DNA of 64,000 nt. Origin: Acidimicrobiales bacterium. Lineage in GTDB: Bacteria > Actinomycetota > Acidimicrobiia > Acidimicrobiales > SKKL01. The DNA is taken from NCBI GenBank assembly GCA_034521975.1, contig JAXHLR010000009.1, forward strand, positions 62,001 through 126,000, written 5' to 3'. Position 1 is the first letter of the stretch. Each line of letters begins with the position of its first letter. This document shows positions 13,772 through 34,382 of this stretch, one piece after another. Under the pieces are notes generated by a model. That model searched no databases. It had not been told where the DNA came from and saw only the letters and a list, made by a program, of their open reading frames with translations. The position numbers were made by a program, and so were the translations under genes.

Positions 13772-15775
13772 TTGTCCGCTGTGCCACCGCGCCGCCCCGG
13801 GTCCACCCACGCCGCCCGCGTCGTCGGCGCGCTCGTCGCTGCCCTCGGCTCGCGCCGGACGACCTTCGGGCTCGCCATCGCCGCCGCGGTCGCCGCCGCG
13901 CTGATCCAGCACCTCGTCTACCCGGCCTTCTCCTGGAACCGCGACGAACCCGTCTATCTGTGGCAGGTCGAGCTGTTGCGGCAGGGCCAGCTCAGCGGGA
14001 CCGACGGAGGGTTCCCTGCGCTGTTCCACCCGTGGCTCAGCGCCTGGCGCGACGGACAGTTCTTCACCCAGTACCCCCTGGGCTGGCCGGTCGTCATCCT
14101 CGCCGGCACCTGGATCAGCTGGCCCGGTGCCGCCATCAGTGCCGCCGCCGCACTCGCGGTCAGCGGGGTCAGCGCCCTCACCCACCAGCTGTCGGGAGAT
14201 CGTCTCCTCGCCAACGTCGCCGGGTTGGTCCTGTTGTGCTCGCCGATCTTCGCCGTGCAGGGCGGGCTCTACCTCAACTACCTGTTCACCACCGGCCTCG
14301 GCCTGTGGTTCCTCGTGCTGTTCCTCGGGGCGGTCCGGACGCGATCGCCGTGGCGTGCCGCCGCGTCCGCGATCCCGTTCGGATGGATCGTGTGCACCCG
14401 GACCTTCGACGCGGTCCTCTGGGGCAGCGTCGCCGTCGGCTACGTGGCCGTGGTCGAGCGTGGACGGTGGAACCGGCAGCTGCGCACCGCCGCCGGGTTC
14501 GTCGCGGCACTGGCTCCCTTCGTCGCCATCCAGCTCCTGCACAACCGGGCGCTCACCGGTTCGCCGTTCACCTTCCCCATCACCGCCAAGGATCCCCTCG
14601 ACACCTTCGGGTTCGGTCATCGCCGGCTCATGCCTGCGTTCGAGTCCGAGGGCTACGGCCTCCGTCGTGCGGTGGTCAGCACCGTCAAGCACGGGTTCTT
14701 CCTCCCGTGGTTCCTGGTGGGCGCCTATCTCGGCGTCGCAGTGGCTGCGGCCACGGCGTGGTTCCACCGACGCCGATCGTCCACGTGGCTCCTGGTGGCT
14801 CTGATCGTGGTGTTCCCGGTCGGCTACTTCGCGTTCTGGGGCACCTACGTCTCCTCGCTCACCGTCCGGCTCAGCGGTCCGATCTACTTCGTCCCCCTGT
14901 ACGCCCCACTGGCCATCCTCATCGCCACCGGTCTGGTGGAGCTGGCACGCCAGCGGCCGCGGGCGACGATGGCCCTGGTGATCGTGCTGGCGGTGATCAC
15001 CGTTCCGGTCACCACCGGACGGCTCGGTCTCAACCGCGAGCTCAGCCGGGCCCAGGTGGCCTGGCGCGACTCGGTCGCGGGCCTCGACGAGCCCGCGGTG
15101 GTGGTCGTGGCCGCCACCTCGTACCTCCTCTACCTCAACCCCTTCTCGGCCAACACCCCCGACATCGACGGCGACATCATCTATGCCACCAACTCGTCGC
15201 CGACGGTGATCGATCTCCTCGACGCCCATCCCGAGCGCGAGCACCTCCTCCAGCGGACGGAGCTGCCGCCGGAGCAGCTGCTCCCCTCGGAGCGACCTCG
15301 CCGGTCCAGGATCGTGCTCGAACCCATGGAGGTGATCGAGGACGAGGCCGTCCTGGTCACGGCCCGGATCGTGCCACCTCGCGACGGGGAGCGGGTCTGG
15401 GCGCACCTCGACCTCGGCGATGAGGAGACCTGGCGCTCGCTGACCTATGACTCCGAGGCCGGGACGCCCATCGAGACCTCCTGGCTGCTCGCCACCTCGG
15501 ACTCGTCTGCTTCGGTGCGAGACGATCCCGACACCGTCATGCTGCCACGGGGATATCTCACGGTCTCCTTCGGCGCGACCTTCGGCGCCGCGCCGCGCCG
15601 AACCCGGCTGACGCCGTTCGTGTTCCAGCGGTTCCACCTCCGCACCGTCGACGGGGTCGAGGTCCTGACGCCAGGTCCGAGCTTCCGCGGTCGCGAGCAG
15701 GACGACCTGCCCTTTCCCGTGCGTTGGGATGCGGTGCTCGACAATCCCGAGCTCAGCGTGGAGGTCGATCCCTGA
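13772..15775 (+). CDS. GT-C family glycosyltransferase (PMT/ArnT-like integral membrane protein)
   Basis: A 667-residue polytopic membrane protein. About ten hydrophobic segments fill residues 30-415. The first extracytoplasmic loop has NRDEPVYLWQ, where the Asp-Glu pair is the usual metal and catalytic site of GT-C enzymes that use polyprenyl-phosphate sugars. The remaining 250 residues are a soluble outer domain rich in beta-type sequence. The likely role is transfer of a sugar to an envelope glycan or protein outside the membrane. TTG 13772 lies seven bases after a TAGCTT hexamer; GTG 13781 is the alternative start. The last 23 bases overlap the end of the convergent AftD-like gene, which supports an envelope role. 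Confidence 0.8.
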   Translation: MSAVPPRRPGSTHAARVVGALVAALGSRRTTFGLAIAAAVAAALIQHLVYPAFSWNRDEPVYLWQVELLRQGQLSGTDGGFPALFHPWLSAWRDGQFFTQYPLGWPVVILAGTWISWPGAAISAAAALAVSGVSALTHQLSGDRLLANVAGLVLLCSPIFAVQGGLYLNYLFTTGLGLWFLVLFLGAVRTRSPWRAAASAIPFGWIVCTRTFDAVLWGSVAVGYVAVVERGRWNRQLRTAAGFVAALAPFVAIQLLHNRALTGSPFTFPITAKDPLDTFGFGHRRLMPAFESEGYGLRRAVVSTVKHGFFLPWFLVGAYLGVAVAAATAWFHRRRSSTWLLVALIVVFPVGYFAFWGTYVSSLTVRLSGPIYFVPLYAPLAILIATGLVELARQRPRATMALVIVLAVITVPVTTGRLGLNRELSRAQVAWRDSVAGLDEPAVVVVAATSYLLYLNPFSANTPDIDGDIIYATNSSPTVIDLLDAHPEREHLLQRTELPPEQLLPSERPRRSRIVLEPMEVIEDEAVLVTARIVPPRDGERVWAHLDLGDEETWRSLTYDSEAGTPIETSWLLATSDSSASVRDDPDTVMLPRGYLTVSFGATFGAAPRRTRLTPFVFQRFHLRTVDGVEVLTPGPSFRGREQDDLPFPVRWDAVLDNPELSVEVDP

Positions 15776-18700
15776 CCCCTCGACCGCCGGTGCGCAGCTC
15801 CCACGCCGCGGCGGCCGCGACGACCACGCCGAGCGCGGCCCACGCCACCATCGGGCGATCGAGGGGGTAGCTGGCCAGGAGGAACGCCGGCGCGGCCACG
15901 GCGGCCACGTAGCGCAGCCGTGGCCACCACCCGACCGCAACGGTGCCCAGCGCGGCGACCACTCCGACCCATGGCCGGCTGACCACGAACATGGCTGTGC
16001 CCGTTGCCGCCGCCGCCACCGCGAGCGCAACGGCCCCGGGCCGTCGGCCATCGCCGGTTGATGTGGTCGGGCTCTGGGTAGCGGCCACGGCCCCCGGCGA
16101 TGGTCGGGTGCCGATCACCAACCCCAGGCAGATCCCGATCGCGAACACCGACACCGCCAGCGCCCACCACACGATCTGCTGAGGCTCCCACCTCAGCTCG
16201 ACCGCGATGGTGCCCGCCGCGTCGGGTTCGACGAGCCAACCGTTGGCATAGCCGTTCACGAGGGTGCGGTCGCCGACCGAGAGCTCGGCTCCGGTGGCGT
16301 CGTCGGTGGCGGTGGCCGTCCATCCGTCGTTGATGCTCTGGCCCAGCACCACCCACACCGGGTTCCCGTCGCTGCGAACCGTGGCGCTCCAGGACGTGCG
16401 GCCGGCACGGACCTCGACCAGATCGGCGGGAGCGGGACCGGTCCGGCCATGATCCTCGGCGGTGGCCCCAGCCTCGGCCGGGGCGCTCAGCACCAGGCGG
16501 TCGAGGTCCAGACCCGACTCGTGGCCGGGCGTGGCAACCATCCGGTGCCGTCCCGCTCCCAGCTCGACCGCGCCATCGCAGAGCTCCACCTCCAGCCCGT
16601 CGCGCATCTGGTCCGCTCGACCGTGCACCCGCACCGCAAGTGGCTCGCCGTCGAGATCGACCAGATCGTCCCGGCATCCTGTGTCCAGGCGGTCGACATC
16701 GTCGATCCCAGGGTTCGGGCTCCCCACCTCCACCTCGCTGATGGCGACCGGCAGCGTGGCCATCGGCGCGGGATCGCCGGGCGGTGAGCTACGGCGCTCG
16801 ACGTCGATGATCTCCAATTCGAGTTCCTGGCCGGTGATCGGGTTCATCTCCAGCTCGATCCGGTGGAGCGAACCCGGGGTCCCCGGATCCGGGGAGCTCT
16901 CGAGTCGATGGGTCGCGACGATCTCGCCGTCGACGCGCAGCGCCAGCTCGGTGGGCACCGAGTGCAGCTCATCGTTGGCCACGTCGACCGACACCGACCT
17001 CGTGCTGAGCGGTTCGTCGTAGCGGACCCGGATGGATTGGCCCACCTGGGGACCGAACGCTGCGGTCCACGCCGTGTCCTCGTCGCCGTCAAAGGCCGAC
17101 GAGGCACGGGCGTCGATGTCGCCCTGCAGCCGGCTCGTGGCCTCGACCACCCCCGCCGGACGGCTGCCGAGCAGCTCATCGAGCACCGCGTCGGGAGCCC
17201 CTGGGTTGGCCCGGACGGTGCCCCCGAGGGTGAACCGCCGATCGCCGGGAAGCTCGAAGGTTCGATCCAACCACCGTTCGGCATCGGTGCGTCCCCGCGC
17301 GTAGGGGTCGTAGCGGAGGCGGGTCAACACCACGTCGAGGCGATGGTCACCGGCGTCCTGTCCGGCCCGGTCGAACAGCTCGCGGGGGAGGACCACGGTC
17401 TCGGCCAGCGAGACCCCCGGTATCTGCACCTCGGCGAAGCCCACCGCGTTGGCCAGCTCCGGTTCGAACCCCGGGTCGGACACGCCGGTGATCTCGATCT
17501 CGAACCGCTGGACCGGTTCGTCGAGGTCGAGCGGGATCGGTTGCCCGGTCGGCGATGACGAGGTGGCGTCGAGCTCGACATCCACGGGTGGCGCAGCATC
17601 GAAGTGGATGCGCACGCGCTCGACGACCCGGTCTCGGGGACCATCCTGGGGCTGGACGAGCACGATCTGGTCCGGGGCGATCGCCTCGTCGAGCGCGACC
17701 GACACTCGCTGGCCTCGGGGATCAGCCCCTCCGATGCGCCACGCCGTCGCCAGGTCGTCGTCGAAGGCGGCGAAGGCCCGGTCCTCGGGACGGGCCGCCC
17801 CGCCGGTGATGCTCGCGCTGACCTGACCACCGAGGTGCTCGACCACCGTGCGGGCGTCATCGGAACTCCCGGTGAAGGGGTCCAGGCGCACGTCGTAGCC
17901 GGTGGGTTCGATGAGCGTCTCCCCCGCACGCTCGGTCGGTCCTCGTGTGTCGCGGATGGCATAGAACCAGGTCTGGATGCGGCGACGATTCGAGTCGGTC
18001 AGGACCAGGTGGGCATCGCGGGACAGGGCGTGGTCCAGCGCGACGTCGTCGAGACCGGCCGAGTAGAGCAGTAGCGAACGCCCGTCGACGAGTCCTGCCG
18101 CCGCGGCGTCGACCACACCGTCGCCGTCGCCGGCGAGCACGATCGGGCCGCGGGAGTCCTGAACGCGGAGCACTCCCGACGCATCGGAGATCTCCAGGGA
18201 CGTGATCGGGGGAACCGGTCCATCGACCAGGGGTGGTCGGGCCCCCCGCAGCGCGGCGAAGTTCAGATGCCGTGGGTCGACCGGAGCGAGACGGCGTTCG
18301 GGCTCATTGACCGCGACGTCGCCGAAGGTCGCGAGCCCGGAGACCCCTGGCGTCGCCGGCTGGGTCAGCGCCGACCAGAGGCGATACGGCTCGGGGGCCC
18401 GGAACCGCTCGAACTGCAGGTCCGATCGGATCACCACGTCTCCGGCCCCGAACAGCCTGGCCACGGGAGCCAGCGACTCGGGTTCGACGATGCCCTCCTG
18501 CATGCGGCGGTCGAGAGCATCGAGCAGGTTCGCGGTCGCGGCCGACCCGTAGGGGAGCACCTCGCGAGCCAGGTGGGGGCGGTCGATCAGCGCCGGGAGC
18601 ACCGGCTCGACGGTGTTGCCCCAGCGGTGCGCGGCAAAGGGGCTACCGGGCACCTCGAGCACCCTCGACGGGTTGCCCGTCGGGAGCGCGCCGCGGGCGT

Positions 18701-20030
18701 CGAGATGCTCGGCAGCCTCGACCCATTCGTGGGGGAGGGATTCCGGACGGTCGAGGTGCTCGGAGAGGTAGCCGTGAACGCCGATCGGCGCCATCGTGGC
18801 CAGCGCCGCGACCACCAGCAGGCCGGCACCGAGGCGCCGGTGCTCGGAGCGGGGCATCGACTCGATCCAGGTGGCGAGCACCACGACAACACCGATGAGC
18901 AGCACTGGCACGATCCGGTGGGAGTTGCGGAACGCCAGCCCCACGGTGGTCTCCTCGCCGAACCATCGAAACCCCCGGCCGAACCAGCTGGGGTCCCGGT
19001 AGGGCCAGGCACCGACGGCGACCACCGTCGCCACCGCCATGCAGGCCACCGCGAAGACCCGCCGGGCGCCGGTGGTGAGCACCGCCGCGGCGAGGGCCAG
19101 TGCGGGGATCACGAGGCTCACCGCGATCACCCACGGCGTGTCGAGATAGGACTCGGCCTGGTCGATGGAGTACCCCAAGCGGTCCTCTCCTGCGAAGAAC
19201 CAGTTGCCGAGCCCGCGGAGCACGTCATTGGGCATCGACCACCGGGCGACCTCGGCAAGGTTCTCGGTGACCGCCAGCACCGGCATGCCATAGGCCCCCT
19301 GCACCCACAGCCCCGCGAGCCACCAGGCCGACGCCAGCAGCGACAACGCGCCGATCCGCACCGCCGTCGCGGCCGATCGACCGGCCTCGGAGAGCCCGCC
19401 CAGGGCGTGATGCATCACGACGAGGATCGGGCCGATCGCAACCAGTGCCAGCGACGTGGCGTTGACACCAGCCACGGTGGCCACCGTCAGGGCGATCAGC
19501 GCCGGATGGCGCCATCCTCCCCACCTCAGGGCCCGGCGGGTCAGTTCCACCAGCCACGGCAGGCCGACCCAAGGCAGCAACAGCACCGAGGCTCTCGCCG
19601 TGAAGGCGAGCTGATAGGGGCTGAGCGCATAGACGAGCGCGCCGGCGAAGGCGACGCACGGTCCTGCGCCGAGGTGTCGGAGCAACCACCTGGCCCCCAG
19701 CGCGGCCAGGAAGGTCAGCGTGCCGAGCCAGAGGCGTTGGGCCACCCAGTCGGGCACGCCGAGCTGTTCGAAGGCCCAGAACCACGGGCCCATGGGCCAC
19801 AGGTAGCCGATGTGTTGGTGGGGGACGGTTCCGGCCCCATGGGACGGGTCCCACATGAAGGCCGCTCCCTCGAGGAACCGGCCCGGATCGACATAGAGCG
19901 CCTGCTTGCTGTCGGCGCTGACCCGACCGGGCGACGACAGCAGGAACGGGAGGTAGGCGATCACCGCCAGGGCGGCGAACTCGCCGGCACGCGCCAGCCC
20001 GACCCACCCGGGGCGCCGCAGGTTCACCAT
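15753..20030 (-). CDS. AftD-like alpha-(1->3)-arabinofuranosyltransferase family protein (paralog 1)
   Basis: A 1425-residue giant membrane glycosyltransferase. The N-terminal 420 residues form a GT-C fold. VSADSKQALYVDPGR (about residues 37-51) holds the Asp expected to be catalytic, followed by the strongly conserved IGYLWPMGPWFWAFEQLG. The large central part is extracytoplasmic and has two discoidin-like carbohydrate-binding stretches with the DxDxxTAW pattern, near 770 and 1060. Four transmembrane helices close the protein after residue 1280. In mycobacteria AftD adds arabinofuranose branches to arabinogalactan and lipoarabinomannan; whether this protein uses arabinose is unknown. ATG 20030 lies nine bases after a TAGCAT hexamer. 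A divergent paralog starts 117 bases away. Confidence 0.85.
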   Translation of the reverse strand: MVNLRRPGWVGLARAGEFAALAVIAYLPFLLSSPGRVSADSKQALYVDPGRFLEGAAFMWDPSHGAGTVPHQHIGYLWPMGPWFWAFEQLGVPDWVAQRLWLGTLTFLAALGARWLLRHLGAGPCVAFAGALVYALSPYQLAFTARASVLLLPWVGLPWLVELTRRALRWGGWRHPALIALTVATVAGVNATSLALVAIGPILVVMHHALGGLSEAGRSAATAVRIGALSLLASAWWLAGLWVQGAYGMPVLAVTENLAEVARWSMPNDVLRGLGNWFFAGEDRLGYSIDQAESYLDTPWVIAVSLVIPALALAAAVLTTGARRVFAVACMAVATVVAVGAWPYRDPSWFGRGFRWFGEETTVGLAFRNSHRIVPVLLIGVVVVLATWIESMPRSEHRRLGAGLLVVAALATMAPIGVHGYLSEHLDRPESLPHEWVEAAEHLDARGALPTGNPSRVLEVPGSPFAAHRWGNTVEPVLPALIDRPHLAREVLPYGSAATANLLDALDRRMQEGIVEPESLAPVARLFGAGDVVIRSDLQFERFRAPEPYRLWSALTQPATPGVSGLATFGDVAVNEPERRLAPVDPRHLNFAALRGARPPLVDGPVPPITSLEISDASGVLRVQDSRGPIVLAGDGDGVVDAAAAGLVDGRSLLLYSAGLDDVALDHALSRDAHLVLTDSNRRRIQTWFYAIRDTRGPTERAGETLIEPTGYDVRLDPFTGSSDDARTVVEHLGGQVSASITGGAARPEDRAFAAFDDDLATAWRIGGADPRGQRVSVALDEAIAPDQIVLVQPQDGPRDRVVERVRIHFDAAPPVDVELDATSSSPTGQPIPLDLDEPVQRFEIEITGVSDPGFEPELANAVGFAEVQIPGVSLAETVVLPRELFDRAGQDAGDHRLDVVLTRLRYDPYARGRTDAERWLDRTFELPGDRRFTLGGTVRANPGAPDAVLDELLGSRPAGVVEATSRLQGDIDARASSAFDGDEDTAWTAAFGPQVGQSIRVRYDEPLSTRSVSVDVANDELHSVPTELALRVDGEIVATHRLESSPDPGTPGSLHRIELEMNPITGQELELEIIDVERRSSPPGDPAPMATLPVAISEVEVGSPNPGIDDVDRLDTGCRDDLVDLDGEPLAVRVHGRADQMRDGLEVELCDGAVELGAGRHRMVATPGHESGLDLDRLVLSAPAEAGATAEDHGRTGPAPADLVEVRAGRTSWSATVRSDGNPVWVVLGQSINDGWTATATDDATGAELSVGDRTLVNGYANGWLVEPDAAGTIAVELRWEPQQIVWWALAVSVFAIGICLGLVIGTRPSPGAVAATQSPTTSTGDGRRPGAVALAVAAAATGTAMFVVSRPWVGVVAALGTVAVGWWPRLRYVAAVAAPAFLLASYPLDRPMVAWAALGVVVAAAAAWELRTGGRGVRDRPPR
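19774..19812. repeat. Inverted repeat copy A, inside AftD-like paralog 1
   Basis: A 39-bp stretch identical, on the opposite strand, to 20357-20395 in the divergent paralog. It encodes the conserved IGYLWPMGPWFW segment. After one mismatch the identity resumes for another 14 bases. The centres of the two copies are about 580 bp apart. Confidence 0.85.
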
Positions 20031-20039
20031 TGGGGCCCG

Positions 20040-20045
20040 ATGCTA
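20040..20045 (-). promoter_or_regulatory. Candidate -10 element TAGCAT for AftD-like paralog 1
   Basis: TAGCAT on the minus strand ends nine bases before the ATG at 20030, with no Shine-Dalgarno between, so the message would be leaderless or nearly so. No -35 is evident. Confidence 0.45.
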
Positions 20046-20097
20046 CCCCTCACCACCGCTTCGCCTTCGCGTACCCCACCAGACCTGCCCGAGCAGG

Positions 20098-20103
20098 TAC
20101 GGT
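20098..20103 (+). promoter_or_regulatory. Candidate -10 element TACGGT for AftD-like paralog 2
   Basis: TACGGT sits in a short imperfect palindrome (GCAGGTACGGTACTGC) in the 117-bp divergent gap. It would give a leader of about 38 bases before GTG 20148. This is the same hexamer as at 1837. Confidence 0.35.
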
Positions 20104-20147
20104 ACTGCCCTGCCTGACCTCGACCTGACCCAGATGCCTGCTCGCTC

Positions 20148-23100
20148 GTGACCCGCACCAACCGTCCAGCACCGAGGCAGGCGCTCCCCTACCTCGCGTT
20201 CGCAGCACTCTGCTACGTGCCGCTGGTCCTGACCCGGCCAGGTTGGTTGAGCGCCGACACCAAGTCGTACCTCTACATCGATCCCGGACGCCTGTTGAGC
20301 CGGGCCTGGTCGATGTGGGACCCCCAGATCGGACTGGGGACCGTGTCGCACCAGACCATCGGCTACCTGTGGCCCATGGGCCCGTGGTTCTGGGCGTTCG
20401 AACAGCTCGGGGTCCCCGATTGGCTCGCGCAGCGCCTGTGGTGGGGCACCTTGCTCTTCCTCGCCGGGGCCGGGGTCGTGTACCTGTTGCGCCGGTTCGA
20501 CTGGCCGCCGGTGGCCATCTGGCCCGCCGCACTGGTCTACGCGATGACGCCCTATGTCCTCACCCACATCGCACGCCTCTCGGGTGTGCTTCTCCCCTAC
20601 GTGGGGCTCCCGTGGATGCTCGCGCTGACGGTCCTGTCGATCCGAAGCCAGCGGTGGCGTCACCCGGCCCTGTTCGCGCTGCTGGTGACGACGGTGGGAA
20701 GCATCAATCTCACGGCGCTGGTCTTGGCCGGTCTCGCACCGGTGATCTGGGTGGTGTATGTCGCCGTCACCGGCCAGGAGCGGCTCGGACAGCTGGTCCG
20801 GGCCGTGGGGCGTATGGCGGTGCTCACGGTGGTGACCAGCCTGTGGTGGCTGGCCGGTCTGGCCGTGCAGGCTTCGCACGGGATCGACATCGTGCGCTAC
20901 ACCGAGACCGCGGAGGTCGTGGCCCGCACCTCGACCGCGTTCGAGGTGCTCCGGGGGCTGGGCTACTGGTTCTTCTACGGGGGCGACAAGCTCCAGCTGT
21001 GGCTCGAGGTGAGCTACCTCTACACCCAGCGCCCGTGGTTGCTGGCGGTCACCTTCGCGCTGCCCGGCCTGGCACTGCTGGGTCCGGCGATCGGGCGGTG
21101 GCGTCACCAGGCGTTCGCCGTCGCCCTGCTCGTCGTCGGTGCGCTCGTGGCGATCGGCGCCCACCCGTGGGGCGACCCCAGCCCCTTCGGTCGAGCCCTG
21201 CAGTGGTTCCTCGCCACCGAGCGGGGGCTCGCGTTCAGGAGCCTGCCGCGTGTCGCCCCTCTGGTGGCGCTGGGGTCAGCGCTGCTCATCGGCACGGTCG
21301 TCGGAACGCTGGCCACGCGCTGGCCACGGCAGGCCAGGGCGGGAGCCGTGGCGGTGGTCGCCCTCGCCGTGGCCGGCTTGGCGCCGCTGTGGCAACGCTC
21401 GCTGGTGAACGACAACCTGTCCCGTCAGGACATCCCCGCCTACTGGCACGATGCCGCCGACACGCTCGAGTCGCGCGACGACGGCACGCGAGTCCTGGCA
21501 CTGCCCGGCAGCGACTTCGCCTCCTACCGATGGGGTATGACGGTCGATCCCGTCATGCCGGGCCTCACCGATCGTCCCTACGTGGCGCGCGAGCTCGTGC
21601 CACACGGCGGCGCCATGGGGGCCGACTTGCTGAACGCGCTCGACCTGCGGCTGCAGGAGAACACCATCGACCCGGACTCGATCGCCCCGGTGGCCCGTCT
21701 CATGCGGGCAGGCGACGTGTTGGTCCGAAGCGATCTGGAGTTCGAACGCCACAACACCGCGCGTCCACGCACGGTCTGGCGGATCCTCACCCACGCGCCG
21801 GGTCTGGAGGCGCCAGTCGGGTTCGGCGATCCGGTCCCCAACGAGGCAGGACCCATCCTCCAGCACCTCGACGAGCAGTGGCTGCTCTATGAGGGCACGC
21901 TGCCCGACCCGCCACCGGTCGCGGTCTTCGACGTGGCCGACGCGGTTCCGATCGTGTCGGCGAAGCCGGCCGAGGCCCCGCTGCTGCTCGCCGGCGACGG
22001 CGCGGGGATCGTGGACGCTGCAGCTGCAGAGCTCATCGACGGGACCGAGCTGATCCGCTACACCGGCAGCCTCGATGCCGAGGAGATCGAGGCCGAACTG
22101 GCCGGCGGAGCCACCCTGCTCATCACCGACACCAACCGCAAGCGTGGCGAGCGGTGGGGCGCGCTGCGTCACAACCGGGGCCACACCGAACGCCTCGACG
22201 AGTCGCCCCTGCGAGAAGATCTGGCCGACAACCGCCTTCCCCGCTTTGCCGACGCTCCTGCCTCGGCCCAGACAGTGGCCATCCAACGGGGTGGGGTCAC
22301 CGCCGACGCCACGGCCTACGGCAACCCGATCACCTACGCCGGCGAGGAGCGGGCCGCTCGCGCGGTCGACGGCGACCCTCGCACCGCGTGGAGCGTCGGC
22401 GTGTTCTCCGACGCCCGTGAGGAGCGTCTGAGGGTGCAGCTCGACGATCCCCACACGCTCGACTGGATCCGCCTGCAGCAGATGTCCCCCGAGGACTCGA
22501 ACCGCGTCATCACCGAGGTTCGCATCACCTTCGACGGCACCGACCACATCGACGTCGAGCTCGATCCCAGCTCCTGGGAGGAACCGGGCCAGCTCATCAC
22601 CTTCCCGGCACGAGAGATCGACCAGGTCGAGGTCGAGATCGTGGCCGACACCGCCGGGGACCCGCCCCGGTTCGGTGAGTTCGGGCCGCTCGGCATCGCC
22701 GAGCTCACCCTCGGTCCCGACTCACCGACGATCGACGAGATCATCAAGGCCCCCACCCACGCCGTGGACGCGGCCGGCGACCGCCTCGCCACCGCCCCGC
22801 TCGGGGTGGTCCTCACCCGCATCCGCCAGGACCCGACCGACCGGACCCGAGACGACGAGGAGCGCTCGATCCGGCGACTCGTCGAGCTCGGTGCCGATCG
22901 CTCCTTCAGCTTCGACGCGGTGGTCCGCCTCTCGGCCCGGGCCGAGGATCCCGTGATCGACCAGCTCATCGGGCACACCTCACCCGAGGTGGAGGTCTTC
23001 GCCACCGACCGCATGGACGGCAGCCGGCGCGAGCGGGCGGCGGCCGCGTTCGACGGCGACGCGACCACCGCCTGGAAGACGCCGTGGGGCCAGCCCACCG

Positions 23101-24473
23101 GTCACGCCATCGCCGCCGAGGTGGCGCGACCCCGCACCTTCGACGGCTTCGACCTCGTGGTGGTCACCGACGGGCGCCACTCGGTCCCGAGCCGGCTGAG
23201 GGTCACCGTCGACGGAACCGAGGTCGCGGTGGTCGACATCGCCGAGCTGGAGCACCTCCCCGAGCCGGGCGCCACCACCACCGTTGCGGTGGAGTTTCCC
23301 GCCACCGAGGGCGAACGTCTCGAGGTCGAGGTCGTCGCTGCACACGAGGTGCGATCCATCGACTGGACCGAGGCACGCCCGCTCGCCCACCCCATCGGCA
23401 TTGCCGAGTTGGGTGTCCCCGGGCTCAGCCTCGGACCGGCCCCCGAGCGGATCGACACCGGGTGCCGCGACGATCTCGTGCGCATCGAGGGCCGACCCGT
23501 ATCAGTGCGGGTCACCGCCGGCACCGAGGCCGCGATGGCCGGTCGGCCCCTGTCCGTCACCCGGTGTGATCCCGACCCGATGGCGCTGCAGGCAGGCGAC
23601 AACGAGCTGATCGTCGCTCGTGGGGTCGACACCGGGCTCGACTTCGACCAAGTCGTCCTCTGGAGCGATGCGCCCGACCCCCCTCCCTCGCCCGACGACC
23701 CGGCCGAGGTGGCAGACATCGAGATCGTCGATGAACAACCCCATGCCATCACCGCCGAGGTGGCCGGTCTCGAACCGGGTCGACCGGTGTGGATCGTCCT
23801 CGGCCAGAACCTGTCCACCGGCTGGACCGCCAGCGCCGGGGACGTCGACCTCGGCGAGCCGCGGCTGGTCGACGGTTACGCCAACGGTTGGCTGCTGGTC
23901 CCCGACTCGACCGAGGTCACCATCGAGCTCGCATTCGCCCCGCAGAACAGGGTGAACCTGGCGCTGGCCGGGTCCGCTGTCGGCGTGCTGGTGTGCCTCG
24001 CGCTGGTCGTGCTGCATCGCGGCGATCGACCGCGGCCCGATCCCGCTCCGCCGCTTCGGCCCGACCCCTCACCGTGGCGCTACGACGGCCAGCGACCGTC
24101 GGCGGCGGCCGCGGTGGCGGCCGCGGCAGGGGTCGGGCTCGTTGCGGCGGCGTTCGGTCCCCCGCTGATCGCGTTGGCCCTCGCGATCGTGGCCGGCCTG
24201 GGGGCACGGCTCGATCGCTCCCGACCGATGGTGGCAGTGCTTCCGGCCGGGTTGTTCGGGCTCGCCGCGCTGTACGTGATCGCCTGGCAGCTACGACACT
24301 CGATCCAGCCGGGGATGGAGTGGGTCGGCGAACTCGAGCGGGCCCACCCGATCGCCCTCGCCGCCATCCTCGCGCTCCCGATCCATCCACTGCTGAGATG
24401 GCTCTGGCGCCGTGGTCCGGACCAGCGCGAGGACTGGTCCTCCCAACGGGACACCGCCACACCTGCCAACTAG
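20148..24473 (+). CDS. AftD-like alpha-(1->3)-arabinofuranosyltransferase family protein (paralog 2)
   Basis: A 1441-residue paralog of the divergent gene, with the same layout. The N-terminal GT-C membrane part carries LSADTKSYLYIDPGR and IGYLWPMGPWFWAFEQLG. It is followed by a long extracytoplasmic part with two discoidin-like segments (around VDGDPRTAWSVG and AFDGDATTAWKTP), and several closing transmembrane helices from about residue 1265. The N-terminal 90 residues match paralog 1 closely while the middle has diverged, which suggests duplication followed by a change in acceptor. Predicted to transfer a polyprenyl-linked pentose to an envelope polysaccharide. The start is GTG. The flavoprotein gene follows after 35 bases and is probably co-transcribed. 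Confidence 0.85.
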   Translation: MTRTNRPAPRQALPYLAFAALCYVPLVLTRPGWLSADTKSYLYIDPGRLLSRAWSMWDPQIGLGTVSHQTIGYLWPMGPWFWAFEQLGVPDWLAQRLWWGTLLFLAGAGVVYLLRRFDWPPVAIWPAALVYAMTPYVLTHIARLSGVLLPYVGLPWMLALTVLSIRSQRWRHPALFALLVTTVGSINLTALVLAGLAPVIWVVYVAVTGQERLGQLVRAVGRMAVLTVVTSLWWLAGLAVQASHGIDIVRYTETAEVVARTSTAFEVLRGLGYWFFYGGDKLQLWLEVSYLYTQRPWLLAVTFALPGLALLGPAIGRWRHQAFAVALLVVGALVAIGAHPWGDPSPFGRALQWFLATERGLAFRSLPRVAPLVALGSALLIGTVVGTLATRWPRQARAGAVAVVALAVAGLAPLWQRSLVNDNLSRQDIPAYWHDAADTLESRDDGTRVLALPGSDFASYRWGMTVDPVMPGLTDRPYVARELVPHGGAMGADLLNALDLRLQENTIDPDSIAPVARLMRAGDVLVRSDLEFERHNTARPRTVWRILTHAPGLEAPVGFGDPVPNEAGPILQHLDEQWLLYEGTLPDPPPVAVFDVADAVPIVSAKPAEAPLLLAGDGAGIVDAAAAELIDGTELIRYTGSLDAEEIEAELAGGATLLITDTNRKRGERWGALRHNRGHTERLDESPLREDLADNRLPRFADAPASAQTVAIQRGGVTADATAYGNPITYAGEERAARAVDGDPRTAWSVGVFSDAREERLRVQLDDPHTLDWIRLQQMSPEDSNRVITEVRITFDGTDHIDVELDPSSWEEPGQLITFPAREIDQVEVEIVADTAGDPPRFGEFGPLGIAELTLGPDSPTIDEIIKAPTHAVDAAGDRLATAPLGVVLTRIRQDPTDRTRDDEERSIRRLVELGADRSFSFDAVVRLSARAEDPVIDQLIGHTSPEVEVFATDRMDGSRRERAAAAFDGDATTAWKTPWGQPTGHAIAAEVARPRTFDGFDLVVVTDGRHSVPSRLRVTVDGTEVAVVDIAELEHLPEPGATTTVAVEFPATEGERLEVEVVAAHEVRSIDWTEARPLAHPIGIAELGVPGLSLGPAPERIDTGCRDDLVRIEGRPVSVRVTAGTEAAMAGRPLSVTRCDPDPMALQAGDNELIVARGVDTGLDFDQVVLWSDAPDPPPSPDDPAEVADIEIVDEQPHAITAEVAGLEPGRPVWIVLGQNLSTGWTASAGDVDLGEPRLVDGYANGWLLVPDSTEVTIELAFAPQNRVNLALAGSAVGVLVCLALVVLHRGDRPRPDPAPPLRPDPSPWRYDGQRPSAAAAVAAAAGVGLVAAAFGPPLIALALAIVAGLGARLDRSRPMVAVLPAGLFGLAALYVIAWQLRHSIQPGMEWVGELERAHPIALAAILALPIHPLLRWLWRRGPDQREDWSSQRDTATPAN
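20357..20395. repeat. Inverted repeat copy B, inside AftD-like paralog 2
   Basis: This is the reverse-complement partner of 19774-19812, perfect over 39 bp. It could serve as a site for recombination that inverts the shared promoter region, although coding constraint alone may explain the identity. Confidence 0.85.
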
Positions 24474-24508: not shown

Positions 24509-26017
24509 ATGACCGACACCGCCCCAGACTCCGCCACACCCGACGTCGTCGTGATCGGTGCCGGCCCGGCCGGCCTCACCGCCGCGTTCCAGCTGGTGAA
24601 GTACGACATCGCCCCGACCGTGCTCGAGGGGACCGACCAGGTCGGGGGGATCAGCCGCACCGTCGAGCGCGACGGCTGGCGGTTCGACATCGGCGGGCAC
24701 CGGTTCTTCACCAAGGTCCAGGAGGTCGAGGACCTCTGGCACGAGATCCTTCCCGACGAGGACTTCCTCCTGCGTCCACGGATGAGCCGCATCTTCTACC
24801 GCGGCAAGTACTACGACTACCCCTTGCGGGCGATGAACGCCCTGGGCAACCTCGGGGTCCTCGAGGCGGTCCGCTGCGTGCTGTCCTACGTGTGGGCCCG
24901 CATCCGCCCCCCGAAGAACCAGCACACCTTCGAGGGCTGGGTCACCGCCAAGTTCGGCAAGCGCCTCTACCAGCACTTCTTCAAGACCTACACCGAGAAG
25001 GTGTGGGGTGTTCCCGCCGACCACCTCGCCGCCGACTTCGCCGCCCAGCGCATCAAGAACCTCGACCTGAAGAAGGCGATCATCAACGCCCTCATGCCCA
25101 GGCGCAACCAGAAGGAGATCACCTCGCTCATCGAGGAGTTCCAGTACCCCAAGTACGGGCCCGGCCAGATGTGGGAGGTGTGTCGCGACAAGGTCGAGGC
25201 GGCAGGCACCAAGGTCGTCATGGAGAACAAGGTCCGCAAGGTCCGTCACCGCGACGGCCGGGCCACCGAGTTGGTGGCGGTGGGGCCCGATGGCAGCGAG
25301 ACCACCTACCCGTTCGATCACGTCATCTCCAGCATGCCGCTGGCGACGCTGGTGCGGATCATGGAGCCGTCGCCACCCGACGACGTCCTGGCCGCGGCCA
25401 ACGGGCTCAACTTCCGCGACTTCCTCACCGTGGCCCTGGTGGTTCCCGCCGAGTACTCGTTCCCCGACAACTGGATCTACATCCACTCCCCCGAGGTGCA
25501 GGTCGGTCGGATCCAGAACTTCGGCTCGTGGTCGCCGTACCTCATCAAGGAGGGCCACACCTGTCTCGGTCTGGAGTACTTCGTCTTCGAGGATGAGGGC
25601 CTCTGGGCCGAGGACGACGACGACCTGGTCGCCCTCGCCGCCCGCGAGCTGGAGGTCCTCGGGCTCGTCGAGGCCGACAAGATCGAGGCGGGATACGTGG
25701 TGCGGATGCCCAAGGCCTATCCGGTCTATGACGAGGGCTATGACGACCACGTGGCGGTGCTGCGCCGCTGGATCGACGAGCACGCCCCCAACGTGCATCC
25801 CGTCGGCCGCAACGGCATGCACCGCTACAACAACCAGGACCACTCCATGTACACCGCGATGCTCTCGGTCGAGAACATCGTCGAGGGGACCAACCACGAC
25901 ATCTGGTCGGTCAACGTCGAGGAGGAGTACCACGAGGAAGCGAGCTCCTCGGTGAAGGAGGGCGGCCGCGCCACAGGTACCGGCCGCGACGCCCCGGTGC
26001 TGCCCAAACGTTCCTGA
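24509..26017 (+). CDS. FAD/NAD(P)-dependent oxidoreductase, UDP-galactopyranose mutase-like
   Basis: A 502-residue flavoprotein. The N-terminal dinucleotide-binding fold is VVVIGAGPAGLTAAFQL (residues 11-27), ending in VLEGTDQVGGISRTV, followed by FDIGGHRFFTKV, which resembles UDP-galactopyranose mutases. KTYTEKVWGVP and the C-terminal NNQDHSMYTAMLSVENI complete an amine-oxidase-like fold. It is about 100 residues longer than canonical mutases, so activity on UDP-galactose is not assured; a different nucleotide-sugar isomerase or desaturase is possible. ATG 24509 follows GAGAAG. Its position directly after an AftD-like gene, in a glycan cluster, supports a furanose-sugar role. The frame continues far upstream, but only as a shadow of the previous gene. 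Confidence 0.8.
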   Translation: MTDTAPDSATPDVVVIGAGPAGLTAAFQLVKYDIAPTVLEGTDQVGGISRTVERDGWRFDIGGHRFFTKVQEVEDLWHEILPDEDFLLRPRMSRIFYRGKYYDYPLRAMNALGNLGVLEAVRCVLSYVWARIRPPKNQHTFEGWVTAKFGKRLYQHFFKTYTEKVWGVPADHLAADFAAQRIKNLDLKKAIINALMPRRNQKEITSLIEEFQYPKYGPGQMWEVCRDKVEAAGTKVVMENKVRKVRHRDGRATELVAVGPDGSETTYPFDHVISSMPLATLVRIMEPSPPDDVLAAANGLNFRDFLTVALVVPAEYSFPDNWIYIHSPEVQVGRIQNFGSWSPYLIKEGHTCLGLEYFVFEDEGLWAEDDDDLVALAARELEVLGLVEADKIEAGYVVRMPKAYPVYDEGYDDHVAVLRRWIDEHAPNVHPVGRNGMHRYNNQDHSMYTAMLSVENIVEGTNHDIWSVNVEEEYHEEASSSVKEGGRATGTGRDAPVLPKRS

Positions 26018-26229: not shown

Positions 26230-26991
26230 TCAGTAGGGAGGGTTGCTCTCGGTGTGGCCGAACCAGCGGTCGGCCAGCCGGGGCTGACCGGCGGCGAGCA
26301 GCACCTTGATGGCCAGGTTGCGGATGAACCACGGCAGCTGGGCCAGTTGCCGGAGCGCGTTCACCACCCGGCCGCCGGGGCCCAGTGGCTCCTTGCGGTA
26401 CTCCGCCAGCGAACGCGAGCGGCCGACATAGCGCCACTCGGCCGACGCCACGAGATCGGTGAGGATCGCCATGGTGACGCCCACCGAGCTGAAGGAGTCG
26501 TGGATGAGCATCGTGCCTCCGGGCCTCACCTTGGCCCCGAAGGCCCGTATGTCACCCACCGCCGGCTGGTACTGGTGGGCGCCGTCGACATAGAGGAGGT
26601 CGATCGTCGCCTCGACATCGTCGAGCGCGTCGTGGGAGAACTTGCGGACGTGGGTCACCCGGTCGCGGACCCCGGCCGCGTCGAGGTTGGTGTTGAAGGC
26701 CTTGTTGTCGATCTCGGCCTCTTCCTGCTGGGTGGACCCTTCACCCCGCAGGGTGCCCCGATCGTTGCCGGCGTGGGGATCGATGGCGACCAGGGTCGTG
26801 CCCGGACCGGCGGCGGTGGCCAGGATGACCGCGGAACGACCCCGGAAACTGCCGATCTCGACCAGCTGCGCGCCGGCCTCGAGCGTCGCCGCCGCGTTCC
26901 ACAGTCGCTCGGCCTGGTCGGTCGAGAGCCAGCCCTCGATCCCCTCGACCTGCTGGAGAGCCTCGGCGAAGGTCGGAGTGGTGGTGCTCAT
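26230..26991 (-). CDS. Class I SAM-dependent methyltransferase
   Basis: A 253-residue protein with a Rossmann methyltransferase core. QLVEIGSFRGRSAVILA (about residues 42-58) is motif I, with the SAM-binding Gly-rich loop; VAIDPHAG is the acidic end of strand 2; TIDLLYVDGAHQY and GGTMLIHD are motifs IV and V. It resembles the Methyltransf_24 group found with glycosyltransferases in polysaccharide and macrolide-sugar clusters. The C-terminal 60 residues are basic and hydrophobic and may lie at the membrane. GAGGA is about ten bases before the ATG. It is divergent from a GT4 glycosyltransferase, with a perfect palindrome in between, so a glycan-methylating role is likely but unproven. Confidence 0.85.
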   Translation of the reverse strand: MSTTTPTFAEALQQVEGIEGWLSTDQAERLWNAAATLEAGAQLVEIGSFRGRSAVILATAAGPGTTLVAIDPHAGNDRGTLRGEGSTQQEEAEIDNKAFNTNLDAAGVRDRVTHVRKFSHDALDDVEATIDLLYVDGAHQYQPAVGDIRAFGAKVRPGGTMLIHDSFSSVGVTMAILTDLVASAEWRYVGRSRSLAEYRKEPLGPGGRVVNALRQLAQLPWFIRNLAIKVLLAAGQPRLADRWFGHTESNPPY

Positions 26992-27094: not shown

Positions 27095-28315
27095 GTGACC
27101 CCACCTGCCCACGAGCGACCAACCTCAGCAGGCCCCGAGACCCTCGACACGCTCCGCACCATCGCCGACAGTGCTGGCCTCGCCCGCATCCAGCTCCTCG
27201 CCTGGCGAGAGCTCGCCGATCCCGAAGCCGGAGGCTCCGAAGTCCACGCCCACGAGGTGATGCGCCGGTGGGCCGCGGCCGGACTGGCGGTCACCATCCG
27301 CACCTCGGCCGCGGCCGGGCACCCCCCGGTCGGCTACCGCGACGGCTACCGGTCGATCCGGCGGGGCGGGCGCTACACCGTCTTCCCGCGAGCAGCGCTC
27401 GGTGCGGCCGCCCACAGGATGGGACCCCGCGACGGCCTGGTCGAGATCTGGAACGGCGTCCCGTTCCTGTCGCCGATGTGGGACCGCGGGCCCCACATCG
27501 CGGTGGTCCACCACGTGCACGGTCCGATGTGGGAGATGGCCCTCGGTCGCCACCTCGGTCGGGTCGGCGAGCTCATGGAGCGCCGCGTCGCCCCACACTT
27601 CTACCGGCGAACCCGCATCGTCACCCTCTCGCAGTCCTCCCACGACGAGCTGGTCGACGACCTCGGCTTCGACCCCGAGATGATCGAGATCGTGCCGCCC
27701 GGCATCGATCCCCGGTTCGCGCCCGGTCACCCCAAGTCGCCGACACCGCTCATCGTGTCGGTCGGGCGGCTGGCGCCGGTCAAGCGGTTCGATGCCCTTG
27801 TCCGCAGCGTGGCCCAGGTGCGCGACCGGCATCCTCACCTGCGTCTGGTCATCGCCGGGGAGGGCACGGAACGACCGGTGCTCGAGGCCGAGATCGCACG
27901 ACTCGGGGCCGCCGACTGGGTGTCGCTGCCGGGTCGAGTCCCCGACGACGAGCTGGTCGAGCTGTTCCAGCAGGCCTGGCTGGTGACCAGCGCCTCGCTG
28001 GTCGAGGGGTGGGGCATGACCCTCACCGAAGCGGCAGCCTGTGGCACCACCGCGGTGGCGAGCCGAACGACGGGACACCTCGACGCGGTGGCCGACGGGG
28101 TCACCGGCGTGCTGGCCGATGACGACACCGAGCTGGCCGGAGCCATCGACCAGGTCCTGTCCGACGCCGAGCTCCGTGATCGGCTGTCGGCCGCGGCCCT
28201 CGAACGCTCGGCCCAGTTCTCCTGGGACGCCACCGCCGAGGCGATCCTCTCCATTCTTGCCCGGGCCGCGGCCGACCAGCGGACCAAGGCTCGGTTCCGC
28301 TCACGCGCCACCTAA
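27095..28315 (+). CDS. Glycosyltransferase family 4 protein
   Basis: A 406-residue GT-B glycosyltransferase. The N-terminal acceptor half contains the Gly-rich DPEAGGSEVHAHEV loop. The C-terminal nucleotide-sugar half has VSVGRLAPVKRFDALV, the strand LVIAGEGTERPVLEAE, and the E-x7-E region VEGWGMTLTEAAACG, where the first Glu contacts the sugar-nucleotide. No signal peptide or membrane segment, so it works on the cytoplasmic side, probably on a lipid-linked or membrane acceptor. The start is GTG without a clear ribosome-binding site. The stop codon overlaps the putative -10 of the next gene. The donor sugar cannot be inferred. Confidence 0.9.
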   Translation: MTPPAHERPTSAGPETLDTLRTIADSAGLARIQLLAWRELADPEAGGSEVHAHEVMRRWAAAGLAVTIRTSAAAGHPPVGYRDGYRSIRRGGRYTVFPRAALGAAAHRMGPRDGLVEIWNGVPFLSPMWDRGPHIAVVHHVHGPMWEMALGRHLGRVGELMERRVAPHFYRRTRIVTLSQSSHDELVDDLGFDPEMIEIVPPGIDPRFAPGHPKSPTPLIVSVGRLAPVKRFDALVRSVAQVRDRHPHLRLVIAGEGTERPVLEAEIARLGAADWVSLPGRVPDDELVELFQQAWLVTSASLVEGWGMTLTEAAACGTTAVASRTTGHLDAVADGVTGVLADDDTELAGAIDQVLSDAELRDRLSAAALERSAQFSWDATAEAILSILARAAADQRTKARFRSRAT

Positions 28316-28326: not shown

Positions 28327-29007
28327 ATGCGCACCGAACCCGTCCTGCTCGTCCACGGATTCGCCACCTCGGCCACCCGCACCTGGGCCGAACCCGGATG
28401 GATCGATCTGATCACCGAGGCCGGACGTGAGGTCATCGCGGTCGATCTGCTCGGCCATGGTGACGCTCCCAAGCCCCACGATCCGGCCGAGTACGAGCGC
28501 ATGGACCAGCACCTGCTCGACCAGCTCCCCGCCACCCCCGTCGATGCCATCGCCTTCTCGCTCGGAGCCCGCCTCACCCTCACCCTCGCCACCCGCCACC
28601 CGGACCGGTTCAGCCGCATCGTCGTCGCGGGCATCGGCGAGAACCTGTTCGGCTCAGAGGGTGGCAGCACGATCGCCGACGCGATCGAATCGAGCGAGAT
28701 CCCCGAGAACCTCACCGCCCGTCACTTCAAGGATCTGGCCGAGACACCGGGCAACGACCCGCAGGCGCTCGCCGCGTGCATGCGCCACCCGTTCGCCGCG
28801 CTCGACGAAGACCAGCTCGCTCGGGTCACCAATCCGGTGCTGGTGGTGCTGGGCGATCAGGACTTCGTCGGGCCCGCCGACCGGCTCGTCGCCGCCCTCC
28901 CCGATGCCCGGCTGGTCACGTTGAAGAAGATGGACCACTTCGGCACGCCGAAGGACTTCACCTTCATCGACGAGGCGCTGGGGTTCATCGACGCTCGCCC
29001 GTTCTGA
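28327..29007 (+). CDS. Alpha/beta hydrolase
   Basis: A 226-residue alpha/beta-hydrolase fold protein. PVLLVHGFATSA supplies the oxyanion region. The nucleophile elbow is AFSLGA: Ser is in place but the first Gly of GxSxG is Phe-preceded Ala. The acid is in VLGDQDFVGP and the histidine in MDHFGTP. Short for the family, with a small lid. It probably hydrolyses an ester or thioester, substrate unknown. A TAAGGT hexamer eight bases upstream suggests leaderless transcription. Its last 23 bases overlap the end of the convergent acyltransferase gene. The Ala in the elbow is found in some functional hydrolases and does not by itself predict loss of activity. Confidence 0.85.
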   Translation: MRTEPVLLVHGFATSATRTWAEPGWIDLITEAGREVIAVDLLGHGDAPKPHDPAEYERMDQHLLDQLPATPVDAIAFSLGARLTLTLATRHPDRFSRIVVAGIGENLFGSEGGSTIADAIESSEIPENLTARHFKDLAETPGNDPQALAACMRHPFAALDEDQLARVTNPVLVVLGDQDFVGPADRLVAALPDARLVTLKKMDHFGTPKDFTFIDEALGFIDARPF

Positions 29008-31075
29008 ACCCGCTCAACGCCCGTCCACCCTGGGGTTCGGCGGTGGCATCGGCGTCGTCGAGGTCGGCGACCGCCTCGGCGCGCTCGTACCACGCATCGA
29101 GGATCTCCCCGGCGAGCCACTGCCCCACCACCGGCGCCTGCTCATCGGTGATGTGGACACCGTCGGGGCGGATCTGGGGGTCCAACGGGCCGCCGGGCAA
29201 CGCCTCGAACCACCCTCGGAGATCGACCATGGTGGCCTCGGTGTCGGGGTAGCGGGCGATCTCGGCGGCCACCAGCTCGTTCCATCGGATGAGACGCTCG
29301 GGGTCGCTCGCGGGGTCGGGGGCGTTGCCGAGCTGGTTCATGCTCTGGTCGATCGGAGGGCTGGTCAGCCACACCACCAGGTCGACATGGTCGGTGAGCA
29401 CCTCGAGCGCCAGACGGATCTCGTTGGCGGCGTGCTCGTCGTAGCGGGGATCGCCGAGCGCGATCCACTCGTTGGTGCCCTCGAGCATCCGGTCGCTGGC
29501 ATCCCACGGGGCGAACAGCACCACCGCGATGTGCGGCTCGTGCTCGTCGAGCACCGACGACCACCGCTCGGGCCAGCTCGCACACAGGTCGCTCAACGGA
29601 TACTCGGACCCGAACGAGCGCATCACCGCGGTGCGCACCAGACCACACCCCAGCACGGTGCTGCCGGGGACCACGAGCACCTCGCCGGTCGTGGTGTCGA
29701 CGTGGAGCAGCCCGTAGTAGGGACCGATCGCGGTCGAGTCGCCGAACAACGCGACGCGAGGCACCCTCACCGTGTCGAGCTCCTCGTCGGTCTCGGCTTC
29801 GTCGGCGAGCCGGGACTGGCGCTCGGCGTCGAGCTCGAGCTCGCTGAACGGGTCGATCTCGCTTCCGAACGATGCGGACTGCATCATCGTGGGCGGCTCG
29901 GAGGGAACTGCGAGGACCCCCGCGAAGAGCGCCACCACCGTCGCGGGCGCGGCGACCAGGGCCACGCGCCCCCGCAGCCGCACGCCGGTGCGGATGGGAC
30001 GCTCGACCACCACATAGGACACCACCGACACCGCCAGGGTGACCGCGCACCGCAGCGCGAACAGCGTCCAGCCGTCGAGCCCGGTGCGCGAGGCGTTCAA
30101 CCACAGAAAGATCGGCCAGTGGAAGAGGTAGACGCCATAGGAGATCAGTCCGAGCCGGCGGAGCGGCTCGAACCCGGCCACCCGGCGTATGGGCCCGGGG
30201 CGCGAGACGGCGAAGAGCACCAGCACCACCGCCAGCGCGTGCAGCGCGAACCCACCCCGGTACAGCCCGGGCGAGCTCACCGGCACCTGGGTCCAGACAT
30301 AGACGATCGCCCCCAGTGCCACCGCTCCCCCCATCTGGAGGGTCGCCTCGGCCAGGCGTCGAGGGGGTCGGCCGGTGTGGCCACTCAGCCACCGCTGCCA
30401 CACCAGCGCGGCGCCGGCGCCGATGAGCAGCTCCGCCGCCCTGGTGTCGGTGCCGTAGTAGGCCCGGGTGGTGTCGCCACCGCTCTGGTACACGACGGCC
30501 ATCCACAACGTGGAGGCCGCCACCAGCGTGGCGAGACCCACAGCCAGGGCCCACCGCCGTCCCCCCGCCAGCATGAGCAGGCCGGCGACGAACAGGGGGA
30601 AGACGACGTAGTACTGCTCCTCGATGGCCAGCGACCACAGGTGGGTCACCGGAGACGGCTCGGCGAAGAGCGCCTCGTAGCTGCTGTCGGTGAACACGAA
30701 GCGCCAGTTCGCGACGTAGGCCAGGGCGGCAACGACATCGCCGGGGAGGTCGCGCTGCACCACGGGGGAACCGGCGGCGATGCCGTAGACCAGGGCGCCG
30801 GCAAGCGCCAACCACGCCGCAGGGAGCAGACGGCGGGCGCGACGCTTCCAGAACCGGAGCAGGTCGATGCGACCGTTCTGCACCCGCTCGTCGATGAGCA
30901 GCGAACAGATCAGGAACCCGGACAGGGTGAAGAACCCGGAGACGCCCAGATAGCCGCCGGTCGCCCACGAGAACCCGCCGTGGAAGCACAGCACGGCGAT
31001 GACGAACACGCCTCGGAGACCGTCGAGGCCGGGTTGGTACCCGAGGGGGGTGGACTGGGTGGTGACCGGGAGCAT
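28985..31075 (-). CDS. OafA/YrhL-type acyltransferase with C-terminal SGNH domain
   Basis: A 696-residue membrane protein. Residues of about 10-400 carry ten hydrophobic helices of the acyltransferase-3 family, with the hallmark GLDGLRGVFVIAVLCFHGGF near the N-terminus (conserved Arg and His). A linker is followed by an extracytoplasmic SGNH-hydrolase-like domain: ALFGDSTAIGP near residue 440 holds the nucleophile Ser, and PDGVHITDEQA near residue 655 the Asp-His pair. Such fusions O-acetylate cell-surface polysaccharides or peptidoglycan. Its place at the edge of the glycan cluster fits acylation of the polymer made by the neighbouring transferases. It is convergent with, and overlaps, the alpha/beta hydrolase. 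Confidence 0.9.
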   Translation of the reverse strand: MLPVTTQSTPLGYQPGLDGLRGVFVIAVLCFHGGFSWATGGYLGVSGFFTLSGFLICSLLIDERVQNGRIDLLRFWKRRARRLLPAAWLALAGALVYGIAAGSPVVQRDLPGDVVAALAYVANWRFVFTDSSYEALFAEPSPVTHLWSLAIEEQYYVVFPLFVAGLLMLAGGRRWALAVGLATLVAASTLWMAVVYQSGGDTTRAYYGTDTRAAELLIGAGAALVWQRWLSGHTGRPPRRLAEATLQMGGAVALGAIVYVWTQVPVSSPGLYRGGFALHALAVVLVLFAVSRPGPIRRVAGFEPLRRLGLISYGVYLFHWPIFLWLNASRTGLDGWTLFALRCAVTLAVSVVSYVVVERPIRTGVRLRGRVALVAAPATVVALFAGVLAVPSEPPTMMQSASFGSEIDPFSELELDAERQSRLADEAETDEELDTVRVPRVALFGDSTAIGPYYGLLHVDTTTGEVLVVPGSTVLGCGLVRTAVMRSFGSEYPLSDLCASWPERWSSVLDEHEPHIAVVLFAPWDASDRMLEGTNEWIALGDPRYDEHAANEIRLALEVLTDHVDLVVWLTSPPIDQSMNQLGNAPDPASDPERLIRWNELVAAEIARYPDTEATMVDLRGWFEALPGGPLDPQIRPDGVHITDEQAPVVGQWLAGEILDAWYERAEAVADLDDADATAEPQGGRALSGFRTGERR

Positions 31076-33603: not shown

Positions 33604-33949
33604 CGAGCACCCTTTCGAGCAGTCTCAGGTCGGGACGGTCCCCGACGTGGTTGGGGCGGTGCACCGCGATCAGGCCCTCTCCGGCGAGATCCCCGACCAG
33701 CACCTTGGCCACACCGAGGTGTAGGCCGAGGTGGGCCGAGATCTCCGCGACGGACTGCGGCGTGGAGCACAAGGCCACGATCCGACCGCGTTCGAGGGTC
33801 AGCGTCTCCTGGTCGGCCAACCCCTGCGGCGTGGAGCTGACCATCGCTTCGATCGGCAGTTCGGTCCCGCCCCTGGTTCGACCGCCGGTGATGGCGTAGG
33901 GCCGGATCCGGACCCCCAGGTCTGGTTCTTCTGGATCGGACGTGGTCAT
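33584..33949 (-). CDS. cvnC: DUF742 conservon protein (CvnC type)
   Basis: A 121-residue DUF742 protein. It has an N-terminal VRIRPYAITGGRT segment, the family hallmark, and a winged-helix-like C-terminus (TPQSVAEISAHLGLHLGVAKVLVGDL). It could bind DNA or a partner; in conservons its biochemical role is not well defined. It overlaps the roadblock gene by four bases (ATGA) and the GTPase gene by 20, so production of all three is coupled. Length and order are standard. Confidence 0.92.
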   Translation of the reverse strand: MTTSDPEEPDLGVRIRPYAITGGRTRGGTELPIEAMVSSTPQGLADQETLTLERGRIVALCSTPQSVAEISAHLGLHLGVAKVLVGDLAGEGLIAVHRPNHVGDRPDLRLLERVLDGLQAL

Positions 33950-34368: not shown

Positions 34369-34382
34369 CGATCAGATCCCTC

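Follow-up and report, generated by a model that had tools for sequence, protein, structure and literature searches.

AftD-like glycosyltransferase genes beside a UDP-galactopyranose-mutase-like gene in an Acidimicrobiales genome without the known arabinose-donor pathway

AftD catalyzes a step in mycobacterial cell-wall synthesis. Here we describe two AftD-like genes, AftD1 and AftD2, in a stretch of 64,000 nucleotides (hereafter the window; positions 62,001 to 126,000 of contig JAXHLR010000009.1, assembly GCA_034521975.1) from an Acidimicrobiales bacterium whose 3.3 Mb genome, in 10 contigs, is 98.7% complete. They are accompanied by a gene for a flavoprotein resembling UDP-galactopyranose mutase (UGM) and by genes for a GT4 glycosyltransferase, a methyltransferase, an acyltransferase and a further GT-C-like protein of 667 amino acids, all of which were correctly recognized in an initial annotation made from the letters of the window.

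The divergent gene pair

AftD1 and AftD2 lie start to start, and both open reading frames (ORFs) are intact, with coding-like GC content at the three codon positions (0.75/0.53/0.87 and 0.74/0.51/0.88). Their lengths of 1425 and 1441 residues, their coordinates (Table 1) and their divergence over 117 bp are exactly as initially annotated. No consensus site was found in a sigma-70 promoter scan of the intergenic region, and an Rfam search of the window gave no match. The assignment of both proteins to AftD-like GT-C enzymes is confirmed: they score far above the cut-off of 26 bits of the Pfam family GT-C_AftD (PF11847; 272.6 and 333.2 bits), and residues 15-1370 of AftD2, a full-length match, align with solved mycobacterial AftD (6w98/6wbx; E 3e-41 in a PDB sequence search). 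Residues D37, in the first loop, and E253 of AftD2 are invariant across 12 relatives and correspond in the alignment to identical residues in 6w98. For GT-CA enzymes a shared catalytic aspartate has been reported, placed at the tip of their first juxtamembrane helix (PMC12041299). The ectodomain of AftD2 matches F5/8 type C (42 bits) and the carbohydrate-binding module (CBM) CBM_AftD (PF24607; 37.7 bits, cut-off 27), and AftD1 has weak discoidin and CBM_AftD matches at residues 969-1076, the latter under the cut-off (22.3 bits).

The two proteins share 40% identity across 1298 amino acids. Their catalytic parts had been described as nearly alike, which overstates the 45% identity in residues 1-440. 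The extracellular parts do differ as annotated (37% identity, residues 721-1275), but their aligned layout is identical, with discoidin/CBM matches ranging from weak to clear in both. Because 45% stands against 37% on the same layout, the catalytic and outer parts contrast in degree only. Judged by sequence, AftD1 and AftD2 are ancient paralogs of an AftD-like family with predicted GT-C fold.

Distribution, phylogeny and the arabinose-donor pathway

A survey of 149 genomes of the class Acidimicrobiia, a non-mycolate class as general knowledge has it and as the initial annotation supposed of this lineage, found PF11847 matches in 64. About 25 of these have at least two matches; that AftD is usually a single gene thus holds for mycobacteria and not here. 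A scan of public genomes yielded 377 stretches encoding AftD-like genes; most of the best 80 come from Acidimicrobiia, and the others from Frankia, Parafrankia, Pseudofrankia and Protofrankia. Only three proteins of the class reach 600-665 bits with PF11847, and all three group with M. abscessus AftD. In the same analysis, a single quick tree made without bootstrapping, the pair of the window and the remaining class proteins form a clade separated from AftD by a branch of 1.51 (support 100), and because of this separation the window genes are, by sequence, AftD-like and not AftD orthologs. A strict split of the tree into clades with and without the arabinose-donor pathway was considered and ruled out, as the labels interleave with 16 changes. 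The proteins encoded at loci L003 (G140:C145) and L005 (G012:C13) fall with true AftD of mycobacteria and score 600-665 bits; in their genomes neither DprE1 nor DPPR synthase is detectable.

AftD1 belongs to a small clade, most members of which adjoin a homolog of the 667-residue GT-C gene. This linkage was seen in five other genomes and at L230, L242, L243 and L255, L242 and L255 being the same contigs as two of the five. The divergent AftD1/AftD2 pair itself recurs in L230 (KLAP198), L243 (HKST-UBA08) and L235 (a short contig). UGM-like, GT4 and AftD-like genes form a recurrent combination: a GT4 homolog is present in 61/80 named loci and a UGM-like gene lies within 10 kb in 27/80, while DPPR synthase, DprE1 and DprE2 were found in 0/80. 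In L190 (G054:C140:60803 and 64770) two near-identical AftD-like frames are adjacent, one being short and interrupted by an in-frame stop within the matched stretch, which reflects either recent duplication or assembly error.

The initial annotation had proposed searching the genome for dprE1/dprE2, embA-C and aftA-C, and held that lack of a polyprenyl-phospho-pentose pathway, together with lack of envelope arabinose, would refute its interpretation. Such a pathway was not found in the genome. The best DprE1 match scores 65 bits against a cut-off of 500 and falls on a general sugar-lactone oxidase, the best DprE2 match scores 69 bits against 250, and profile searches for DPPR synthase, Emb (PF04602) and AftA (PF12249) gave no match; AftB and AftC were not part of the search. 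An assembly gap is an unlikely cause of the missing donor genes, since DPPR synthase is likewise absent from three other genomes of the family, in which the AftD-like genes are kept. As far as predicted gene content goes, arabinose transfer by the known donor route cannot take place in this genome.

Elsewhere in the class the situation is different. In one family (f2), a set comprising HAD phosphatase, DPPR synthase, methyltransferase, DprE1, DprE2 and GT4 adjoins an AftD-like gene; in the f2 example tested, DPPR synthase, DprE1 and DprE2 are all above their NCBIfam cut-offs. Decaprenyl-phosphoarabinose gene sets occur in many Acidimicrobiia, yet Emb and AftA are nearly missing, and this opens the evolution of arabinan synthesis to testing through simple sugar analyses of members in culture. 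At an Acidimicrobiales locus, L078:150-5732 (G048:C11), HAD phosphatase, DPPR synthase, DprE1 and DprE2 make up a complete decaprenyl-phosphoarabinose cluster; in the alignment, its DprE1 does not carry a cysteine where M. tuberculosis DprE1 has Cys387. Arabinosyltransferase domains of Emb type (102-104 bits) occur at L032/L037 (G025:C7) and L033/L036 (G102:C23), with a weaker neighbour of 44 bits in G025; both genomes lack DprE1 and DPPR synthase matches over cut-off.

The window pair represents an AftD-like clade that is spread widely through Acidimicrobiia and Frankia and has no known arabinose donor in some lineages, the present one among them. In the literature searched there was no paper on AftD in Acidimicrobiia, and a search on whole-cell arabinose in the class gave only a taxonomy overview. 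As this large clade, present in a non-mycolate class, is partly devoid of the arabinose-donor pathway, automatic naming of its members as arabinofuranosyltransferases is unsafe.

The UGM-like flavoprotein and a possible role of the pair

The flavoprotein next to AftD2 belongs to a family, NF005548, whose only annotation is "hypothetical protein". In a PDB sequence search its nearest solved structures are UGMs (E 4e-25), and the top 34 Foldseek matches of its AlphaFold model (mean predicted local distance difference test, pLDDT, 82) are all UGM, with template modelling scores of about 0.74-0.83. Equivalents of H63, F66, Y104, R182, Y317 and R327 of Aspergillus fumigatus UGM are present and invariant in 22 relatives. 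By predicted fold and active-site residues it thus resembles the UGMs of A. fumigatus (3ukh) and Trypanosoma cruzi (4dsg), with a template modelling score of about 0.77, although it is only 22% identical; it is nearer to the type of eukaryotes than to the short Glf of bacteria. Sequence, fold and catalytic residues agree in identifying a genuine UGM-type protein, as initially annotated, with predicted mutase activity.

A UGM-like gene is present in 52/64 AftD-positive against 11/85 AftD-negative genomes of the class. The corresponding figures for DprE1, counted from 430 bits upward (which takes in three genomes under the curated cut-off of 500), are 49/64 and 14/85, leaving 15/64 AftD-positive genomes without it. 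At family level, UGM-like genes occur in 24/24 AftD-positive and 5/16 AftD-negative families (p 2e-6), and DprE1 in 15/24 and 3/16 (p 0.01). The UGM-like gene is the better correlate of AftD-like genes. UGM-like proteins about 50% identical are also found in unrelated bacteria, and UGM is therefore not specific to AftD-like systems. An idea that UGM-like genes lie near AftD-like genes only in genomes without the donor pathway was dropped after more loci had been read. Complementarity of UGM-like gene and donor pathway is suggestive and is not claimed here, the UGM-negative genomes being almost all of one family; just one AftD-positive genome, a fragmented metagenome-assembled genome, has neither.

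What the pair does, which donor and acceptor it uses and how the two enzymes share the work are inferred here from gene structure, homology, conserved partners and the missing donor genes. We propose, at roughly even odds (about 0.5), that AftD1 and AftD2 are paralogous transferases working outside the cytoplasm, with a polyprenyl-phosphate sugar different from decaprenyl-phosphoarabinose as donor and a galactofuranose-containing envelope glycan as acceptor. Each enzyme would take one sugar from the polyprenyl-phosphate carrier at a membrane-facing site with the invariant aspartate of the first loop, and would add it to a long envelope glycan gripped by the discoidin-type carbohydrate-binding domains. 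Decaprenyl-phosphoarabinose made by the known route would not be the carrier sugar, since the genome has no such pathway. Two GT2 proteins encoded elsewhere in the genome (C6:340688 and C5:471716), which resemble polyprenyl-phosphate sugar synthases with scores far under curated cut-offs, could load the carrier. The UGM-type flavoprotein would make a UDP-furanose, most likely UDP-galactofuranose, whose sugar may be built into this glycan by transferases of the cytoplasm, for instance the GT4. AftD1 and AftD2 would then decorate the glycan at different positions.

Of the known systems, AftD itself (Rv0236c; 6w98, 6wbx), the arabinofuranosyltransferase of mycobacteria and corynebacteria, shares with the window pair the PF11847 domain, the discoidin-like CBM matches in the ectodomain, the alignable length (as seen with AftD2) and the conserved Asp and Glu. 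Unlike AftD, the pair stands outside the ortholog clade, consists of two divergent copies next to a second GT-C gene and one for a UGM-like protein, and resides in a genome devoid of DPPR synthase, DprE1/2, Emb and AftA. Three-component pentofuranose systems (GT136) combine a lipid-linked furanose with a GT-C transferase bearing a CBM, working outside the membrane (PMC11127046). They are alike in concept but need a polyprenyl phosphoribose synthase, none of which was detected here with the DPPR-synthase model.

Several observations weigh against the proposed mechanism. The arabinose-donor pathway is present in the majority of AftD-like genomes (49/64), those with DprE1 also possessing DPPR synthase, bar one contig-edge fragment; sequences from genomes with and without the pathway are mixed in the AftD-like tree; and the f2 cluster plausibly favours arabinose as donor in some members of the clade at least. 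Moreover, genomes drawn from a single class do not count as independent, kinship was handled at family level only, and the association with UGM may merely reflect a shared envelope cluster. The donor-bearing genomes and the f2 arrangement are also what would be expected if the pair were D-arabinofuranosyltransferases as in mycobacteria, their donor genes having been missed through an assembly gap or replaced by a non-homologous route to polyprenyl-phosphoarabinose. We regard this as quite improbable in a genome of 98.7% completeness in 10 contigs with three family relatives equally devoid of DPPR synthase; DPPR synthase and DprE1 are absent from 14 other AftD-like genomes too, and the same searches find them readily elsewhere.

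The product of UGM might itself be the donor, UDP-galactofuranose or another UDP-furanose being loaded on polyprenyl phosphate by a GT2 enzyme and transferred outside by the AftD-like proteins. Co-occurrence of UGM-like and AftD-like genes in every AftD-positive family is consistent with this, as are the two GT2 genes named above and the GT2 genes of the same type adjoining UGM-like genes in several loci, e.g. L149, L205 and L152. Such a route nevertheless seems fairly improbable: the GT2 profile scores are low, no GT2 of this type lies in the window cluster, UDP-galactofuranose is normally used directly in the cytoplasm, and AftD-like genes of family f2 mostly lack a UGM-like partner. An ordinary polyprenyl-phosphate hexose of mannose, glucose or N-acetylgalactosamine type would suit the GT2 proteins as well, and many GT-C enzymes are known to use such donors; the AftD label would then apply at fold level only, in line with the long branch between the window clade and AftD proper, and UGM would serve an unrelated polymer. 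This we consider rather unlikely, since repeated linkage to UGM-like genes, and to the arabinose-donor cluster in f2, points to furanose chemistry. It is also conceivable, though unlikely, that the AftD-like clade has been re-tooled for a non-arabinose furanose (e.g. galactofuranose) on polyprenyl phosphate, supplied by the UGM-like protein, with f2-type lineages using decaprenyl-phosphoarabinose; a single enzyme family would then switch donor sugar between lineages.

Under the preferred mechanism, in which a different carrier sugar is transferred to a galactofuranose-containing glycan, the undescribed furanose-containing envelope polymer suggested by the initial annotation is plausible, whereas arabinan-type donor chemistry is unsupported. 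Envelopes of Acidimicrobiia are poorly described, and the class may build such a polymer.

Other genes of the window

Table 1. Coordinates of the AftD-like genes and their neighbours in the window.
Feature	Position	Strand	Remarks
GT-C-like membrane protein, 667 aa	13772..15775	+	DE motif residues 58-59; 3' end overlaps AftD1 3' end
AftD1, AftD-like GT-C glycosyltransferase	15753..20030	-	1425 aa, ATG start; PF11847 272.6 bits
Divergent intergenic region AftD1/AftD2	20031..20147	.	117 bp, 68% GC
AftD2, AftD-like GT-C glycosyltransferase	20148..24473	+	1441 aa, GTG start; PF11847 333.2 bits
UDP-galactopyranose-mutase-like flavoprotein	24512..26017	+	NCBIfam NF005548 (PRK07208), 814 bits vs cut-off 389
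Methyltransf_24 methyltransferase	26230..26991	-	PF13578 75 bits
GT4 glycosyltransferase	27095..28315	+	PF00534 128.5 bits
Alpha/beta hydrolase	28327..29007	+	PF00561 67.6 bits
Membrane acyltransferase (Acyl_transf_3), DUF459 C-terminal part	28985..31075	-	PF01757 103.4 bits, DUF459 27.7 bits

The D58 and E59 residues of the 667-residue GT-C-like protein are invariant among its relatives, and its predicted structure is closest to ArnT, with low confidence (pLDDT 64). The acyltransferase scores far under the cut-off of the SucT profile. The Methyltransf_24 family (F10) is also found inside decaprenyl-phosphoarabinose clusters of relatives.

Farther along the window, a branched-chain-amino-acid-type ABC system with fused parts occupies positions 47616-55447; a protein of 779 amino acids contains two permease stretches and another of 1011 amino acids joins an MFS-type part to two ABC ATPase stretches. 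A four-gene signalling module of conservon type (NIT/HAMP histidine kinase, Roadblock/LC7, DUF742 and small GTPase) lies on the minus strand at 33016-37013; L169, L172 and L173, from relatives in the family, have homologs of it close to their AftD-like genes.

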